A stretch of DNA of 64,000 nucleotides, taken from NCBI RefSeq assembly GCF_001463885.1, contig NZ_BBWQ01000020.1, forward strand, positions 62,001 through 126,000. The letters are read 5' to 3'. Below the pieces are notes generated by a model. That model was not told the DNA's origin. It worked only from the letters and a program-made list of their open reading frames with translations, and ran no database searches. Below, piece after piece: positions 21,618 to 28,516 of this stretch (position 1 is its first letter; each line of letters begins with the position of its first letter). Both the position numbers and the translations under genes were made by a program. The DNA is from Aureimonas altamirensis (GTDB lineage: Bacteria > Pseudomonadota > Alphaproteobacteria > Rhizobiales > Rhizobiaceae).

Positions 21618-21645
21618 TTGACGTAATGTAATAACATAACATAGT
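21618..21645 (+). promoter_or_regulatory. Promoter with Zur-like operator ahead of the zinc operon
   Basis: A -35 box TTGACG (21618-21623) and a -10-like CATAGT (21640-21645) are 16 bp apart. Between them lies GTAATGTAATAACATAAC (21623-21640), an imperfect palindrome in which 7 of 9 base pairs match. AT-rich palindromes built around ATGT...ACAT-type halves are characteristic of alphaproteobacterial Zur boxes. A repressor bound here would block RNA polymerase, so the operon should be switched on by zinc limitation. Confidence 0.72.
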
Positions 21646-21681: not shown

Positions 21682-22617
21682 ATGGCCTTCTCAAGACATA
21701 TCATTCGTGCCCTCGCCTTTGCGGCCGCTGTTGCGGCGTTTGGCGGGAATGCTCAAGCCAAGTCGCTTCGCGTTGTCGCCAGCTTCTCGATCATCGGCGA
21801 TTTCGCCGCCGTTGTGGGCGGCGACCGGATCGAACTTCAGACGTTGGTGGGCCCCAATGGCGACGCGCATGCGTATGAGCCGCGCCCAAGGGATGCGACG
21901 GCCCTTGCGCATGCAGATGTGATCCTGACCAACGGGCTGGAGCTGGAAGGCTTTCTGGATCGGCTGATTACCGCCAGTGGCACCAAGGGCCACGTCGCAA
22001 CGCTGACCGATGGCCTCCTGGCGATCGAAGAACCGGGTGGCGGCCATTACCATTTCGTCAATGGTGAAGCGATTTTCCATGCCGGCGCGCTGAATGCCCA
22101 TGCGTGGCAGTCCGTACCCAACGCCAAAATCTACGTGGCCAATGTCCGCGACGCATTCTGCCAGGCCGATGCAGCAGGATGCCAATCCTACACGGACAAT
22201 GCAGACGCCTATCTAGAGGCGCTGGACAGTCTGGACCGCGATATCCGCGACACTCTGAAAACGCTTCCGGACGATCGCCGCACCGTTGTCGTGGGGCACG
22301 ACGCCTTCGGCTACTTCCAACAGGAATACGGGATCCGCTTCCTGTCGCCGCAGGGCATTTCCACTGCGTCCGAAGCTTCGGCCGCCGACGTGGCGGGGCT
22401 GATCGAGGAGATGCGCCAAGCCGACGTCAAGGCGATCTTTGCGGAGAACATCAGCGACCCCAGACTGGTCGAGAGGATCGCATCGGAGGTCGGCGTGCAA
22501 CTTTCCGGCACCCTCTATTCCGATGCCCTGTCGCCGGCCGACGGCCCCGCGCCCGACTACATCACCATGATGCGGCACAATCTGGCACTGCTGGCGAAAG
22601 CCCTGTCGGCCGGTTGA
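21682..22617 (+). CDS. aztC: Zinc ABC transporter substrate-binding protein AztC
   Basis: This 311-residue periplasmic protein belongs to cluster A-I of metal-binding proteins. A signal peptide ends at GGNAQA (about residue 26). The zinc ligands can be placed as His63 (DAHAYEP), His140 (NAHAWQS), His206 (VGHDAF) and Asp281 (YSDAL), the H-H-H-D set of AztC, with a short His-containing loop before His140. The ATG at 21682 has GGAG upstream; a TTG at 21673 is less likely. It lies behind a Zur-like operator and before aztD. No aztA (ATPase) or aztB (permease) gene is nearby. Confidence 0.92.
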   Translation: MAFSRHIIRALAFAAAVAAFGGNAQAKSLRVVASFSIIGDFAAVVGGDRIELQTLVGPNGDAHAYEPRPRDATALAHADVILTNGLELEGFLDRLITASGTKGHVATLTDGLLAIEEPGGGHYHFVNGEAIFHAGALNAHAWQSVPNAKIYVANVRDAFCQADAAGCQSYTDNADAYLEALDSLDRDIRDTLKTLPDDRRTVVVGHDAFGYFQQEYGIRFLSPQGISTASEASAADVAGLIEEMRQADVKAIFAENISDPRLVERIASEVGVQLSGTLYSDALSPADGPAPDYITMMRHNLALLAKALSAG

Positions 22618-22683: not shown

Positions 22684-24501
22684 ATGTTGCGAAGACTAAG
22701 CTGCGCGACGGGCATCGCGCTCATTCTGGCAGGTACCGGCATGGTGCATGCAGAGGACGGGCACGACGACGTCACCCTTTTCCGCGTTTTCGTTGCCGAT
22801 CATGCGGAGCCCCGCATCACGGCGTTCGATCTTACAGAGCCCGCCAATCGCTGGAGCTTCCAGACGACAGGGCAGAGCCGGCTCTATCCCATCGACAATG
22901 GTACGGCCATCGCCGCCGTCCAGTCCGATGCCGATGCGGTTCATTTCCTGCGCAGCGGCGTCACGCTCAGCGCGCACGGAGATCATTCCGACATCGAGAT
23001 AGCGGACCCGGCCAGCCTGCCGCAAACCCTGTCCGGGCCGCGGCCTTTCCACCTGATCGATCATGGCGGCAAGGTCGTCATCAACTTCGATGGCGGGGGA
23101 TATGCCGGCATTCTCGACGCGCATGCCTTGTCGGATGGCGCGCTTGAGGAGCGACGCCTGCCGCAGGCACGCGCGCATCACGGCTATGTCGCGCCGATCG
23201 GCAATGGCTGGGTCACCAGCGTTGCCTCCGATGCGCCGGTCGAGGGCGATGCCGCGCCGTCTCGCATCGGCCTTCAGCCAGTGGACGGGGATGGCAAGCC
23301 GACCGGCGAGGTCGCAGCCTGCACCGCCATCCACGGCGAGGCGTTTTCCGGCGCCTATCTGGCAACCGGCTGCAAGGAAGGCATCCTGACGGTGACCGCC
23401 GGTGAAAACGGGCCGGCCTTCAAGATGCTGGACTACCCGGCCGACCTGCCCTCGGGGCAAAGCACCGGAACGCTGCTCGGATCGACCGCGATGCAGGTTT
23501 TCCTGGGCAACTACGGTGCCAAGGGACTTGTGGTGATCGACCCGGTCGATACGCCGCACCTGCGCTATGTCGAGCTGCCATTCCGCCGCATCGACTTTAC
23601 CCTCGATCCGGCCAATGCCCGCTTCGCCTACGTGTTGACCGAGGACGGAACCTTGCACCAGTTCGACATGCTGGAAGCGAAGGTGACGGCAAGCGCGCGC
23701 GTTACCGAGCCCTATTCGATGGACGGACATTGGAGCGATCCGCGCCCGCGCCTTGCCATGGCGGGCGACGAAGTGGTGATGAGCGACCCGAAGGCCGGCC
23801 TGATCCGGCGCATCGCAAAGGCCGACCTTAAGGAAATCGGCACGATTGCCGTAGACGGCATGCCCTTCAACATCGCTGTCGTCGGCGGAAGCGGCGTCGT
23901 CCACGACCATGCCGACCACGACCACGCGGGCCACGACCACGCAGGCCACGCGCACAGCCATGGCGACCCCCAGATCTACAAGGGCTATTTCGAGGATGCC
24001 CAAGTCGTGGATCGCCCCCTGTCGGACTACGCCGGAGACTGGCAGTCGGTCTATCCCTACCTGCAGGACGGGACCCTGGACCCGGTCTGGGCGCATAAGG
24101 CGGAGGGCGGCACGATGAGCGCCGACGCGTACCGCGCCGAGTACGAGACCGGCTATCGCACCGATGTCGAGCGCATCACCATCGAAGGCGACAGGGTGAC
24201 GTTCTACCGCGACGGCAAGCCCATCGGCGGCACCTACGTGTATGACGGACTGGAGATCCTGACCTACAAGAAGGGCAATCGCGGCGTGCGCTTCATCTTC
24301 CAGAAGACGGCCGGCGATGACGACGCACCGCAATTCATCCAGTTCAGCGATCACAAGATCGCTCCGGAAAAGACCGATCACTTCCACCTGTATTGGGGCA
24401 ATGACAGAGCCGCGCTTCTGGAAGAGGTCACGAACTGGCCGACCTACTATCCCTCAAGGCTCGACGCCGACCAGATCGTAGAGGAGATGCTGGCTCACTA
24501 A
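22684..24501 (+). CDS. aztD: AztD zinc metallochaperone fused to a ZinT domain
   Basis: This 605-residue secreted protein has two parts. Residues 1-24 form a signal peptide; about 25-400 form the AztD beta-propeller, a periplasmic chaperone that hands zinc to AztC. A His/Asp-rich linker at about 406-426 (repeats of DHDHAGH) leads into about 180 residues matching the whole of ZinT, with LSDYAGDWQSVYPYLQ near its start and NWPTYYPSRL near its end. The ZinT zinc ligands are His557, His566 and His568, with the same spacing as His167/176/178 of E. coli ZinT. Separate AztD proteins stop near 400 residues, so this is a fusion. It is 66 bp after aztC. Confidence 0.9.
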   Translation: MLRRLSCATGIALILAGTGMVHAEDGHDDVTLFRVFVADHAEPRITAFDLTEPANRWSFQTTGQSRLYPIDNGTAIAAVQSDADAVHFLRSGVTLSAHGDHSDIEIADPASLPQTLSGPRPFHLIDHGGKVVINFDGGGYAGILDAHALSDGALEERRLPQARAHHGYVAPIGNGWVTSVASDAPVEGDAAPSRIGLQPVDGDGKPTGEVAACTAIHGEAFSGAYLATGCKEGILTVTAGENGPAFKMLDYPADLPSGQSTGTLLGSTAMQVFLGNYGAKGLVVIDPVDTPHLRYVELPFRRIDFTLDPANARFAYVLTEDGTLHQFDMLEAKVTASARVTEPYSMDGHWSDPRPRLAMAGDEVVMSDPKAGLIRRIAKADLKEIGTIAVDGMPFNIAVVGGSGVVHDHADHDHAGHDHAGHAHSHGDPQIYKGYFEDAQVVDRPLSDYAGDWQSVYPYLQDGTLDPVWAHKAEGGTMSADAYRAEYETGYRTDVERITIEGDRVTFYRDGKPIGGTYVYDGLEILTYKKGNRGVRFIFQKTAGDDDAPQFIQFSDHKIAPEKTDHFHLYWGNDRAALLEEVTNWPTYYPSRLDADQIVEEMLAH

Positions 24502-24597: not shown

Positions 24598-24771
24598 GTA
24601 CCGTGATATAGAGACCCTGCTGGGAGGCAGGGTCCACGCGGTATCGCCGCATTGGCCGGAAGTTCGCTTCGGTCCGCAGCGCGCAAGCGCAAACGGGCCA
24701 ATCCTTTGCCTCTCCGCAGTCATGCTTGGCGGCCAACGCGCCGCGACGCTGCCAGAGGAAAGGAATTCGAC

Positions 24772-25599
24772 ATGACTTCGATCGCCCTGTTCGGCGCCGG
24801 TGGCAAGATGGGCTACCGTCTGGCCAGCAATTTAAAAGGCTCGCGCTTCGACGTGCGCCACGTCGAGCCCAGCGAGGCCGGCGCAAAGCGCCTCAAGGAC
24901 GGTCTGGGCTTCGATTGCGTGCCCGCGGAAGCCGCGCTCGACGGCGCCGAAGTGGTGGTGCTGGCCGTACCGGACACGCTGATCGGCAAGGTTGCCAACG
25001 GCATCGAGAAAAGCCTGAAGCCCGGCACCATCGTCGTCGTGCTGGACGCGGCGGCCCCGTTTGCCGGCCACTTGCCCAACCGCCCCGACCTGACCTACTT
25101 CGTCACCCATCCGTGCCATCCGCCGATCTTCAACGACGAGACGGAGATGGACGCCAAGCGCGACTTCTTCGGTGGCATCGCCGCCAAGCAGCACATCACG
25201 TCGGCCCTGATGCAGGGCCCCGACGAGCATTATGCGCTGGGTGAGGAAGTCGCCAAGGTGATCTGGGCGCCGGTCATGCGCTCGCATCGCGTGACCGTGG
25301 AGCAGATGGCCCTTCTGGAGCCCGGCCTGTCCGAAACCGTCTGCGCCAGCCTGCTGGTTGCGATGAAGGAAGCCATGGACGAGGTCGTGGCACGCGGCGT
25401 GCCGAAGGAAGCCGCACGCGACTTCCTTCTCGGCCACATGAACGTGCTCGGCTCGGTGATCTTCGAGGAGACACCCGGCGTGTTCTCCGACGCCTGCAAC
25501 AAGGCGATCGAGTTCGGCAAGCCGATGCTGATGCGCGACGACTGGAAGCGCGTCTTCGAACCGGAAGAGCTGGCCGCCTCCATCCGCCGCATCACCTGA
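24772..25599 (+). CDS. apnO: D-apionate oxidoisomerase
   Basis: This 275-residue NAD-dependent enzyme should convert D-apionate to 3-oxo-isoapionate. It has an N-terminal Rossmann site (ALFGAGGKMGYRL) and a C-terminal domain of the phosphogluconate-dehydrogenase-like PGDH_C type, with the characteristic YFVTHPCHPPIFNDETEMDA and VIWAPVMRSHRVTVEQMA segments of ApnO. A strong GAGGAAAGG site precedes the ATG. It is followed by apsD and apnL, the other upstream enzymes of apiose catabolism, which makes the family assignment firm. Confidence 0.92.
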   Translation: MTSIALFGAGGKMGYRLASNLKGSRFDVRHVEPSEAGAKRLKDGLGFDCVPAEAALDGAEVVVLAVPDTLIGKVANGIEKSLKPGTIVVVLDAAAPFAGHLPNRPDLTYFVTHPCHPPIFNDETEMDAKRDFFGGIAAKQHITSALMQGPDEHYALGEEVAKVIWAPVMRSHRVTVEQMALLEPGLSETVCASLLVAMKEAMDEVVARGVPKEAARDFLLGHMNVLGSVIFEETPGVFSDACNKAIEFGKPMLMRDDWKRVFEPEELAASIRRIT

Positions 25600-25664
25600 G
25601 TTCGGTTGATCTCCAGGCTCTGCCGCCCCGCCGGCAGAGCCATTCCTGCGCGGAGGACGTAAGA

Positions 25665-26705
25665 ATGGGAAATGCCGGAAACAGGCTGCAAGGCGCGCTG
25701 ATCGGATGCGGCTTCTTCGCCGTAAACCAGATGCACGGATGGGCCGATATCGCCGATGTCGACATCGTGGCCGTCTGCGACCGCGATGCCGGCCGCGCGA
25801 AGGCCATGGCCGAACGCTTCGCCGTGGCCAGGGTCTATGACGATGCCGCGGCGATGATGCGTGCGGAAACGCTCGATTTCGTCGATATCGCGACGACGCC
25901 GCCCAGCCACCGCGCTTTGGTGGAGCTTGCGGCGGCCCACCGCATTCCCGCCATCTGCCAGAAGCCCTTCGCCCCACGGCTGGACGACGCACGCGCGATG
26001 GTGGCCGCCACGCAGCAGGCCGGCACAAGGCTGATGGTGCACGAGAATTTTCGCTGGCAGTCGGCCATCCGGGCGGCGGCGGCGGCCCTGCAATCCGGCA
26101 GCATCGGCAGGCCCTTCTTTGGGCGTGTCTCGTTTCGCTCTGCCTTCGACGTCTATGCCGCACAGCCCTACCTTGCCACGGGCGAGCGGTTCATCATCGA
26201 GGATCTCGGCATCCACGCGCTGGATGTCGCACGCTATTTGTTCGGCGACGTTTCCGGCGTCACGGCCCGGATCGCCCGCGTCAATCCGGCGATCCGGGGC
26301 GAGGACGTCGCCACGATGATGCTCGACCACGCCAGCGGCGTCACAAGCATCGTCGACTGCTCCTACGCCACGCGGCTGGCCGAAGAGCATTTCCCCCAGA
26401 CGCTGATCGAGATCGATGGCGCAGACGGCACGATCCGGCTGGATGCGGGCTATCGCCTGACGGTGACCACGCCAGGCGGCAGCCGCGCCGAAGACGTATC
26501 GCCGACGCTCCTGCCTTGGGCCGAGCGGCCATGGCACAACATCCAGGAAAGCGTTCTTGCGATCCAGCGGCACTGGGTAGACTGCCTGCGCGCCGACACC
26601 CAACCGGAAACATCCGGGGCCGACAATCTGAAGACGCTGGCGCTTGTCGAGGCGGCCTATCTCAGCGCCGCTGAAGGCCGCTCCATCGATCCGGATACGC
26701 TGTGA
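25665..26705 (+). CDS. apsD: D-apiose dehydrogenase (Gfo/Idh/MocA family)
   Basis: This 346-residue oxidoreductase should oxidise D-apiose to D-apionolactone with NAD+. It shows the Gfo/Idh/MocA fold: nucleotide motif GALIGCGFFAVNQMHGW, a QKPF motif in place of the common EKP, and the catalytic-face segment IEDLGIHALDVARYLFG. The assignment as ApsD rests on overall resemblance plus its place between apnO and apnL; the family is broad and close paralogues act on other sugars. Its stop overlaps the GTG start of apnL (GTGA). Confidence 0.85.
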   Translation: MGNAGNRLQGALIGCGFFAVNQMHGWADIADVDIVAVCDRDAGRAKAMAERFAVARVYDDAAAMMRAETLDFVDIATTPPSHRALVELAAAHRIPAICQKPFAPRLDDARAMVAATQQAGTRLMVHENFRWQSAIRAAAAALQSGSIGRPFFGRVSFRSAFDVYAAQPYLATGERFIIEDLGIHALDVARYLFGDVSGVTARIARVNPAIRGEDVATMMLDHASGVTSIVDCSYATRLAEEHFPQTLIEIDGADGTIRLDAGYRLTVTTPGGSRAEDVSPTLLPWAERPWHNIQESVLAIQRHWVDCLRADTQPETSGADNLKTLALVEAAYLSAAEGRSIDPDTL

Positions 26706-28516
26706 CGACGCGCGACGACATGGCGCTGCGCCGACCGACGGCCGATGGCCGCAGGCTGCTGGCCGGCAGGCTGTCGGCGGAACTCGTATCCGGTGGTCTG
26801 CGGGACATTCGCTACGACGGACATGAGGTCCTGCGCGCCATCGACTATGTTGTCCGCGACCGCGACTGGGGCACCTACGACCTGATCGTGACCGGGCTCG
26901 ATGTCGACGAGACGCAGGCGGGCTTTTCCATCCGCTATGCGGCCCGCTGCGCGGCGCCGGACGGGACGGCCCTGCATCTCAGCGCGCGCATCGAGGGTGC
27001 CGAAGACGGTACGCTGTCCTTTACCGTCGACGCCACGCCGGACGGCGCGTTCGAGACAAACCGCACGGGCTTTTGCGTGCTGCACCCGATCGAGGGTGTC
27101 GCAGGCGCGCCGGTGCGGGTTACCCATACGGACGGCACCACGCAAGACGCCCACTTCCCCGACCTGATCGAGCCATGGCAGCCTTTCAAGGATATCAGGG
27201 CGCTCGACCATTCTCCGGCCCCCGGCCTTTCGGCAAGCTGCCGGATGGAGGGGGACACGTTCGAGATGGAAGACCAGCGCGCCTGGTCCGACGCTTCGTA
27301 CAAAACCTATGTGCGGCCGCTAAGCCTGCCCTGGCCCTACCGCCTGACGCCGGACGTGCCGCTGCGACAGAGCGTGACGTTGACTGTCCGCCGGTCGGCG
27401 GACGCGGTACCGAAGAGCCGGCCGGACGTCGTGTCGATACGGCTGGGCGAGCGCCTGCCGACACACATGCCGCCCATCGGCGTTGCCGTGTCGCCGGGCG
27501 AGACCGGCGCTGCGGACGCCGCACGCGATGCGCTGGCGGAGTTGAACCCGCAATCGCTGCTTCTGGCATACGAGCCCGGGATCGGCCATGGCCGGGCAGA
27601 GCTTGAGCAGCTTCGCATGCTGGCGGAGGCCGTTCCGGACTCCGAGCGCGTGCTGGAGTTCGTCGTTCCGACAGCCGGGCCGCTGGGAAGCGCCTTCGAC
27701 ACGGCTGCGTCGGCCATCCTGGAATCGGGTCTTGCACCCCATGCCGTCGCGGCGCTGGCGGATGTCGACCGCCAATCCACCCCGCCCGGCAGCGAATGGC
27801 CGGCCTGCCCGCCTCTGGAAGACATCTATGCCGAAGCGCGCCGGGCCTTCCCCGGCGTCTCGATCGGCGGCGGCATGTTCAGCTATTTCACGGAGCTGAA
27901 CCGCAAGCGCGTGCCGGCCGCGCTGCTGGACTTCGTCACGCATGCCACCTGCCCCATCGTCCATGCAGCGGACGACCGCAGCGTGATGCAGACGCTGGAA
28001 GCGATCCCTTATATCACGCGGTCCACACGCAGTTTCATCGGCACGACGGCATACCGCCTCGGCCCCACCACCATCGGGATGCGGCAGAACCCGTACGGCT
28101 CGCGCACCATGCCCAATCCCGACGGCGGGCGCATTCCGATGGCGCATGACGATCCGCGCGGCCGCAGTGCGTTCGGTGCGGCCTGGCTGGTGGGCTATGC
28201 CGCACGGCTTGCCGGCACGGGCGTGCAAAGCTGGACGGCCGGCTCCCTCAGTGGACCGCGCGGCGCGATCCTGCCGGATGGCGGCAGAACGCCCGCCTTC
28301 GCCGTGCTGAAAACGCTGGCCAGCCTTGCCGGGCGACCGCGCATCGCGCTTGAAAGCGATGCGCCCGGACGGGTCGATGGCTTCGCCGCGCTCGATACCG
28401 ACGGCTCGACCGTCCTGTGGCTTGCCAATCTGACGGCCGAAGACCAGCAGGTGCATATAGACGGCGAAATGGCGACTCTCGGCCCCTATGCGCTCCTGAG
28501 CCGGGTCACCTCATGA
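26702..28516 (+). CDS. apnL: D-apionate lactonase
   Basis: This 604-residue protein matches ApnL in size and layout. It has an N-terminal beta-rich domain, a central TIM-barrel-like region (GGGMFSYFTELNRKR) and a C-terminal beta domain ending near YALLSRVTS. ApnL hydrolyses D-apionolactone to D-apionate. Translation appears to start at GTG 26702, overlapping apsD by 4 bp; an ATG at 26720 is the alternative. There is no signal peptide, so it acts in the cytoplasm. It ends 8 bp from the 3' end of the convergent GntR gene. Confidence 0.86.
   Translation: MTTRDDMALRRPTADGRRLLAGRLSAELVSGGLRDIRYDGHEVLRAIDYVVRDRDWGTYDLIVTGLDVDETQAGFSIRYAARCAAPDGTALHLSARIEGAEDGTLSFTVDATPDGAFETNRTGFCVLHPIEGVAGAPVRVTHTDGTTQDAHFPDLIEPWQPFKDIRALDHSPAPGLSASCRMEGDTFEMEDQRAWSDASYKTYVRPLSLPWPYRLTPDVPLRQSVTLTVRRSADAVPKSRPDVVSIRLGERLPTHMPPIGVAVSPGETGAADAARDALAELNPQSLLLAYEPGIGHGRAELEQLRMLAEAVPDSERVLEFVVPTAGPLGSAFDTAASAILESGLAPHAVAALADVDRQSTPPGSEWPACPPLEDIYAEARRAFPGVSIGGGMFSYFTELNRKRVPAALLDFVTHATCPIVHAADDRSVMQTLEAIPYITRSTRSFIGTTAYRLGPTTIGMRQNPYGSRTMPNPDGGRIPMAHDDPRGRSAFGAAWLVGYAARLAGTGVQSWTAGSLSGPRGAILPDGGRTPAFAVLKTLASLAGRPRIALESDAPGRVDGFAALDTDGSTVLWLANLTAEDQQVHIDGEMATLGPYALLSRVTS

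Follow-up and report, generated by a model that had tools for sequence, protein, structure and literature searches.

ZinT (YodA) of E. coli and Salmonella is a free periplasmic protein, auxiliary to ZnuABC, and is thought to give its zinc to ZnuA. Interaction of the two is reported in PMC6689063, with no transfer of zinc between them demonstrated. According to PMC7858048, a direct partner of ZinT in vivo has not been observed in Gram-negatives, and for Agrobacterium it has been suggested that ZinT works with TroCBA rather than ZnuA (PMC7029138). According to PMC6689063 and PMC7463823, direct transfer has been demonstrated for AztD, the chaperone of the AztABCD system, but not for ZinT. AztD passes zinc to the binding protein AztC solely from its site 2, the AztC loop with its three histidines is required for this, ZnuA is not loaded by AztD, and zinc was not seen to move between AztD molecules from site 1 to site 2 (PMC6689063). 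A role as periplasmic zinc reservoir has also been called likely for AztD (PMC7731109). Joining of ZinT to a second zinc-handling protein has its precedent in streptococcal AdcA, where ZinT is likewise C-terminal and follows a short linker, of 11 residues (PMC7858048). The same paper states that the N-terminal part of AdcA alone is necessary for import, a point on which another group disagrees.

The window (the whole stretch of DNA analysed, 64,000 nucleotides of Aureimonas altamirensis) holds a gene, behind that for AztC, in which the two families meet (Table 1). The original prediction of AztD fused to a full ZinT in 605 residues is borne out: the frame is open throughout, and the profile and PDB matches described below confirm, at the level of sequence, that a single frame comprises a complete AztD propeller and a complete ZinT domain. 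Of the candidate starts, ATG 22684 is favoured over the upstream GTG 22624 because alignments of relatives begin at the ATG and what follows it, judged by eye, resembles a signal peptide; many AztDs are reported to have signal sequences (PMC6689063).

Table 1. Features of the aztC-fusion locus, in window positions, and of the second azt locus of the same genome
Feature	Position	Strand	Remarks
Zur-box-like site	21623..21637	+	15/15 identity to the published pden1595 (aztA) motif
aztC, zinc solute-binding protein	21682..22617	+	GGHYH...FH short loop as in Paracoccus AztC; ATG start preferred, start in ORF list 21673
AztD-ZinT fusion gene	22684..24501	+	605 aa; from translation, profile and PDB matches
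Signal peptide (probable)	22684..22752	+	About residues 1-23, judged by eye
AztD beta-propeller domain	22684..23904	+	Residues 1-407; last residue is the site-2 ligand H407
His/Asp/Gly-rich linker	23905..23970	+	Residues 408-429; 22 residues, 8 His
ZinT domain	23971..24498	+	Residues 430-605; ligands H557, H566, H568
aztABC-type operon, window genome	L041:4368-6976, contig C1		No aztD alongside; Zur-box-like site in front

The NCBIfam AztD model NF038015 matches residues 37-402 over its whole length (model positions 1-356 of 356; E 5.4e-112; 374.1 bits). The score is under the curated cut-off of 400 bits, which is an annotation threshold and not a biological trait: it is passed by 71 of the 117 family genomes with a match, the other 46 having a mixture of full-length matches and fragments. 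Because those 46 also fall below it, the half is named AztD by homology and ligands rather than by the cut-off. PDB chain 6ck1_B (‘A1B2F4 protein’, 408 residues with a C-terminal His) matches residues 1-407 (E 4e-182); we take it to be AztD of Paracoccus denitrificans, which is consistent with the numbering in the literature. More generally, entries 6ck1 and 6cmk/6n01 are presumed to be the AztDs of P. denitrificans and Citrobacter koseri. With ligand numbering carried over through the 6ck1_B alignment from the residues named in PMC6689063, the ligands of site 1 (H123, H166, H217), those of site 2 (H98, H101, D103, H407) and the cysteine pair C213/C230 are all present. The fusion thus has in common with the two characterised AztDs the propeller, both zinc sites, the cysteine pair, the place after aztC and a Zur site at the operon. 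Where it departs from them is at its C-terminus, as those two end at the site-2 histidine (6ck1) or in a short His-rich tail (6cmk) and are without a ZinT domain (PMC7463823).

The same difference is apparent from genomic relatives. The 38 stand-alone AztDs that were extracted stop at the site-2 His (His408 in Paracoccus) or at most 3 residues beyond it, while in fusions that histidine (H407 in the window) is followed by a His-rich linker that leads into ZinT. That ZinT might be a normal tail of AztD, an outcome that would have refuted the original prediction, was consequently dropped as a possibility. A His/Asp-rich linker had been placed at about 406-426; such a linker there is, though with limits of 408-429, as H407 belongs to AztD. 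Across 38 fusions its length ranges between 8 and 52 residues, 3-19 of them histidines.

Pfam ZinT (PF09223) matches residues 430-605 across model positions 4-181 of 181 (E 1.2e-79; 266.8 bits, passing the cut-off of 27). PDB matches to this half start anywhere between 413 and 432, those of E. coli ZinT chains at 413 or 418 and those of AdcA chains at 430 or 431, and run to the C-terminus or nearly so. The E. coli match beginning at 413 already starts inside the His-rich linker. H557, H566 and H568, presumably the ZinT zinc ligands, are present with the spacing of ZinT; as in the E. coli and Salmonella protein the domain is full and its three histidines are equally spaced, but there ZinT is free and here it makes up the C-terminal half of a chain that begins with AztD. 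That these three had been kept was part of the original prediction, and they prove to be invariant in 38 fusions; indeed all AztD and ZinT ligands of both halves are conserved in 38 of 38 aligned fusions. The contrast drawn with AdcA also stands. In AdcA, ZinT is on the binding protein itself; in the fusion it is on the chaperone, with AztC, the binding protein, as a separate chain. No ZnuA-type binding domain precedes ZinT, residues 1-407 being AztD: Pfam ZnuA (PF01297) is absent among the profile matches of the fusion, and the AdcA model covers 422-605 only.

In titles, abstract openings and text passages of the accessible literature on AztD with zinc or ZinT, on ZinT domain fusions and on zinc in Aureimonas, no description of an AztD-ZinT fusion was found. 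The AztD and ZinT families are already known, and within that literature it is their union in one chain that is new. A search for the same fusion in other genomes had been proposed, and a more singular case had been implied. The fusion is real and widespread: it is in 13 of 101 genomes (the window genome included), comprising 11 of the 21 of the genus and two others. When named genomes were scanned with two patterns derived from ZinT, the best 80 of at least 560 relatives comprised 35 with an intact fusion, 4 in which it is broken or partial and 41 with ZinT only. The intact 35, among that best 80 of at least 560, come under 21 alphaproteobacterial genus names including Aureimonas, Fulvimarina, Rhizobium, Agrobacterium, Martelella, Devosia, Mesorhizobium, Nitratireductor, Stappia, Labrenzia, Paracoccus, Cereibacter and Amaricoccus. 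That the fusion might be an artefact of assembly or annotation, a reading in favour of which nothing was found, merits next to no credence, as independent assemblies contradict it: the frame has no stop between the two parts, which would have refuted the original prediction, and recurrence of the same in-frame junction in those 13 of 101 genomes makes a sequencing error there not credible, as do the 35 among the best 80 of at least 560 relatives.

Broken or partial fusion genes (L074, L078, L088, L089, L171) are present in Agrobacterium sp., Jiella pacifica, Devosia sp., Brucella cytisi and on a Sinorhizobium meliloti megaplasmid, a possible sign of its local decay. Four genomes of the same genus (G001, G011, G017, G018) have, in place of the fusion, a divergent stand-alone AztD (40-44% identical), and the same query gave no ZinT match in them.

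How the two families are distributed relative to each other was assessed in 394 genomes of the family, a class-wide census of 385 genomes being too thin (13 with any AztD match, 3 of them strong, and 5 with ZinT; both in the window genome only). In the family census ‘fused’ denotes same strand, a gap below 500 bases and open frames of equal length. By this definition 30 genomes have the two fused in frame, 1 has them adjacent in another frame, 3 have separate AztD and ZinT, 79 have AztD only, 46 ZinT only and 235 neither. Two of the 30, G576 and G774, have open frames of merely 367 and 388, so that 28 look intact. Weak or fragmentary matches were counted as ‘without’ for 4 of the 117 AztD genomes (G818, G649, G634, G047) and 3 of the 83 ZinT genomes (G507, G604, G554), and several second fragments were also dropped. 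Free AztD and free ZinT are together in 3 genomes against 11 expected (Fisher p 0.002, uncorrected for kinship). With this deficit, and with 30 of the 34 co-occurrences being in one frame, the two appear to be mostly alternatives and, where they do occur together, mostly one chain.

The 15 nucleotides in front of the window's aztC are its sole match, at up to 2 mismatches, to the Zur motif listed for pden1595 (aztA) of Paracoccus in Table 7 of PMC5387054; 0.02 such matches are expected. A Zur matrix was built from the five motifs in print. Scored with it, 35 of 38 upstream regions (those of 36 fusion loci, of the window and of the aztABC operon of the window genome) exceeded every one of 100 shuffles. 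The exceptions are L055, whose contig begins within aztC, L056, where the called aztC start is probably too far upstream, and L060. The place of the fusion behind aztC and the Zur-box match together suggest that the two genes may be co-regulated. Among 36 fusion frames in 39 loci (counting L074, with its cut ZinT) the order is aztABC-fusion in 12, aztC-fusion in 10 and znuA-fusion in 1, and 13 have none of these on the same strand; one of the 13, L079, has a divergent aztABC next door. Genes for zur-like proteins and COG0523-type GTPases are frequent nearby.

Beside the aztC-fusion pair in the window no aztA or aztB was seen. As in AztABCD systems aztC adjoins the gene for the chaperone and aztABC is present in the genome, but the pair is detached from aztAB, which is on another contig and has a second AztC (Table 1). 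The best match of each of the three L041 proteins is the respective AztA, AztB or AztC model, with scores slightly under the cut-offs, and the window AztC scores 339.2 bits against the AztC model with its cut-off of 350. The loop of the L041 AztC is long and His-rich (36 aa, 11 His), and that of the window AztC, GGHYH...FH, is the loop of Paracoccus AztC (5w56). Further ABC-3 permease matches in the genome are three on contig C10 and two weak ones elsewhere. A remaining binding protein, with a short single-His loop, is probably of the Mn/Fe type.

In two genomes, G624 (locus L081) and G027 (locus L053), the fusion immediately follows a gene of ZnuA type, with ABC-transporter-like and Zur-like genes alongside, by similarity. 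No AztC with the short HYH loop was found genome-wide in either, so that one binding protein may here have naturally replaced another as partner.

On the downstream side of the window's fusion, the genes at 24652-28516 resemble a set for the catabolism of apiose/apionate, with a PGDH_C-type reductase, an oxidoreductase of GFO/IDH/MocA type and a D-apionate lactonase that scores 795.9 bits on NF049900, above the cut-off of 750. Close relatives of these apionate-type genes also follow the fusion in G005.

Candidate acceptors were sought among the ZnuA-family binding proteins of 62 genomes: the 28 with apparently intact fusions, 17 with AztD only and 17 with ZinT only. Loops were read for 141 of the 146 matches; the others are one of 816 bases in G005, two fragments in G528 and, next to the fusion, the short AztC matches of G727 and G819. 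A long His-rich loop, defined as at least 32 aa with at least 7 His, is present in 27 of 28 fused genomes, in all 17 with ZinT only and in 8 of the 17 with AztD only. The excess in ZinT-bearing genomes (p 1e-5, uncorrected for kinship) is to be read with p values for loop association being optimistic, because the 62 genomes are related and the comparison groups were drawn from high-scoring rows. The short HYH loop is in 14 of 28 fused genomes (G727 and G819, with merely a short AztC match beside the fusion, being among the other 14) and in none of the 17 AztD-only or 17 ZinT-only genomes. AztD-only genomes pair AztD with partners whose loops are of other sequence, so that an HYH loop is not needed in a partner of AztD. 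Both kinds of loop are found in 13 of the 28, the window genome being one.

Trees of the two halves give different pictures. The AztD halves of fusions are spread over the two deep clades of AztD, and a grouping of them as one clade is rejected (p-AU 9e-81; 24 fused and 20 stand-alone sequences chosen from 88 rows, on a quick tree). ZinT halves are compatible with one clade in a weakly resolved tree (p-AU 0.62; 24 and 26 of 100 rows), also when three fused rows are not counted (p-AU 0.69). Some genomes are in the trees twice (e.g. L012, L084, L152), and the broken or partial fusions, labelled stand-alone in the first trees, were left out of the row choices for the p-AU values. Mean identity between the two AztD clades is 42% for AztD and 73% for ZinT. 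Use of half-identity as a clock failed, ZinT similarity being about equal whatever the AztD distance, closest pairs excepted, and it is for this reason that the evolution is read from trees. Their topology suits one ZinT lineage that has been attached to several AztDs or exchanged between them; one ancient fusion followed by many losses of ZinT is also compatible with it.

What the fused chain might do can be approached from what each half is known for. The reading that we prefer, and hold tentatively, is that it is a zinc-starvation chaperone of the periplasm with two donor heads, in which AztD would serve the short-loop AztC and ZinT a second binding protein with the long His-rich loop. Under zinc scarcity aztC and the fusion would be made together from the Zur-type site, and zinc would be captured by both halves and by the His-rich linker. 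The AztD half would hand its site-2 zinc to AztC at the short HYH loop, as the Paracoccus proteins have been shown to do, and the ZinT half would give mainly to the long-loop protein, which in the window genome would be the L041 AztC. A single AztB-type permease was found in that genome, and it would then be common to the two binding proteins. Since the linker begins at the AztD transfer site, zinc is proposed to be held close to both heads. Presence of a His-rich-loop binding protein in 44 of the 45 ZinT-bearing genomes examined provides a possible acceptor for ZinT of its own, but 8 of the 17 AztD-only genomes have the long-loop protein without any ZinT, and a general rule of two acceptors is weakened by half of the fused genomes being without the HYH kind and by G007, which keeps a fusion with no long-loop protein. 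A fuller proposition, that the chain serves two acceptor classes feeding the same permease and that the same ZinT lineage was joined to more than one AztD lineage, being assembled repeatedly or swapped between hosts, is conceivable, though less likely than not.

Two independent heads would need no shared chain, and the 3 separate against 30 fused genomes hint that the halves act on each other. The main rival is an intramolecular relay, the mechanism suggested with the original prediction, in which ZinT would capture zinc, the linker carry it to AztD site 2 and AztC take it from there. The linker does start exactly at the site-2 ligand, a residue that is terminal or nearly so in the 38 stand-alone AztDs; histidines are present in it in all 38 fusions; both families are in one frame in 30 of the 34 genomes that have both; the fusion is directly after aztC in 22 of 36 cases; and tethering of ZinT to a binding protein in AdcA (PMC7858048) is a precedent. 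However, passage between sites is not a given property of AztD, as none was seen from site 1 to site 2 between molecules in PMC6689063, and the AdcA precedent is weakened if import needs the N-terminal part only, as PMC7858048 has it and another group disputes. The span of linker lengths, the 13 of 36 fusions with no aztC or znuA on their strand, the two genomes in which the partner is of ZnuA type and the near-universal His-rich-loop protein as alternative acceptor also weigh against a relay, and we regard it as a serious but less favoured rival. Some of these features also suit simple capacity, the two AztD sites, the ZinT site and the linker putting more zinc on each chain as a periplasmic reservoir with no directed hand-over from ZinT. 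The reservoir role described for AztD (PMC7731109), the wide variation in length and histidine number of the linker, and those same 13 fusions are in its favour, but invariance of the ligands of both halves in all 38 fusions and association of the fusion with acceptor genes make such buffering improbable. The same invariance, in sequences spanning both deep AztD clades, leaves very little room for just one half working with the other as passenger or docking aid, though absence of the presumed ZinT acceptor from 1 of 28 fusion genomes (G007) and the broken or partial state of some fusion genes could be taken that way.

Delivery of zinc from a periplasmic chaperone to an importer is unsettled, and the fusion could help to show it under zinc scarcity. 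With both AztD and ZinT in a natural chain, and the junction at a known transfer ligand, the relay and two-acceptor readings should be distinguishable with one protein and two binding proteins of one genome.

There is also a consequence for annotation. Of 210 matching plasmid records, 8 cover 80% or more of the fusion in one place; annotated copies are labelled ZinT, AztD or hypothetical and none as a fusion. The plasmid of Rhizobium sp. Q54 that carries a copy (L169:6001-13830) is typed as conjugative, and a few kb from the fusion it has genes annotated for chloramphenicol efflux and beta-lactamases.
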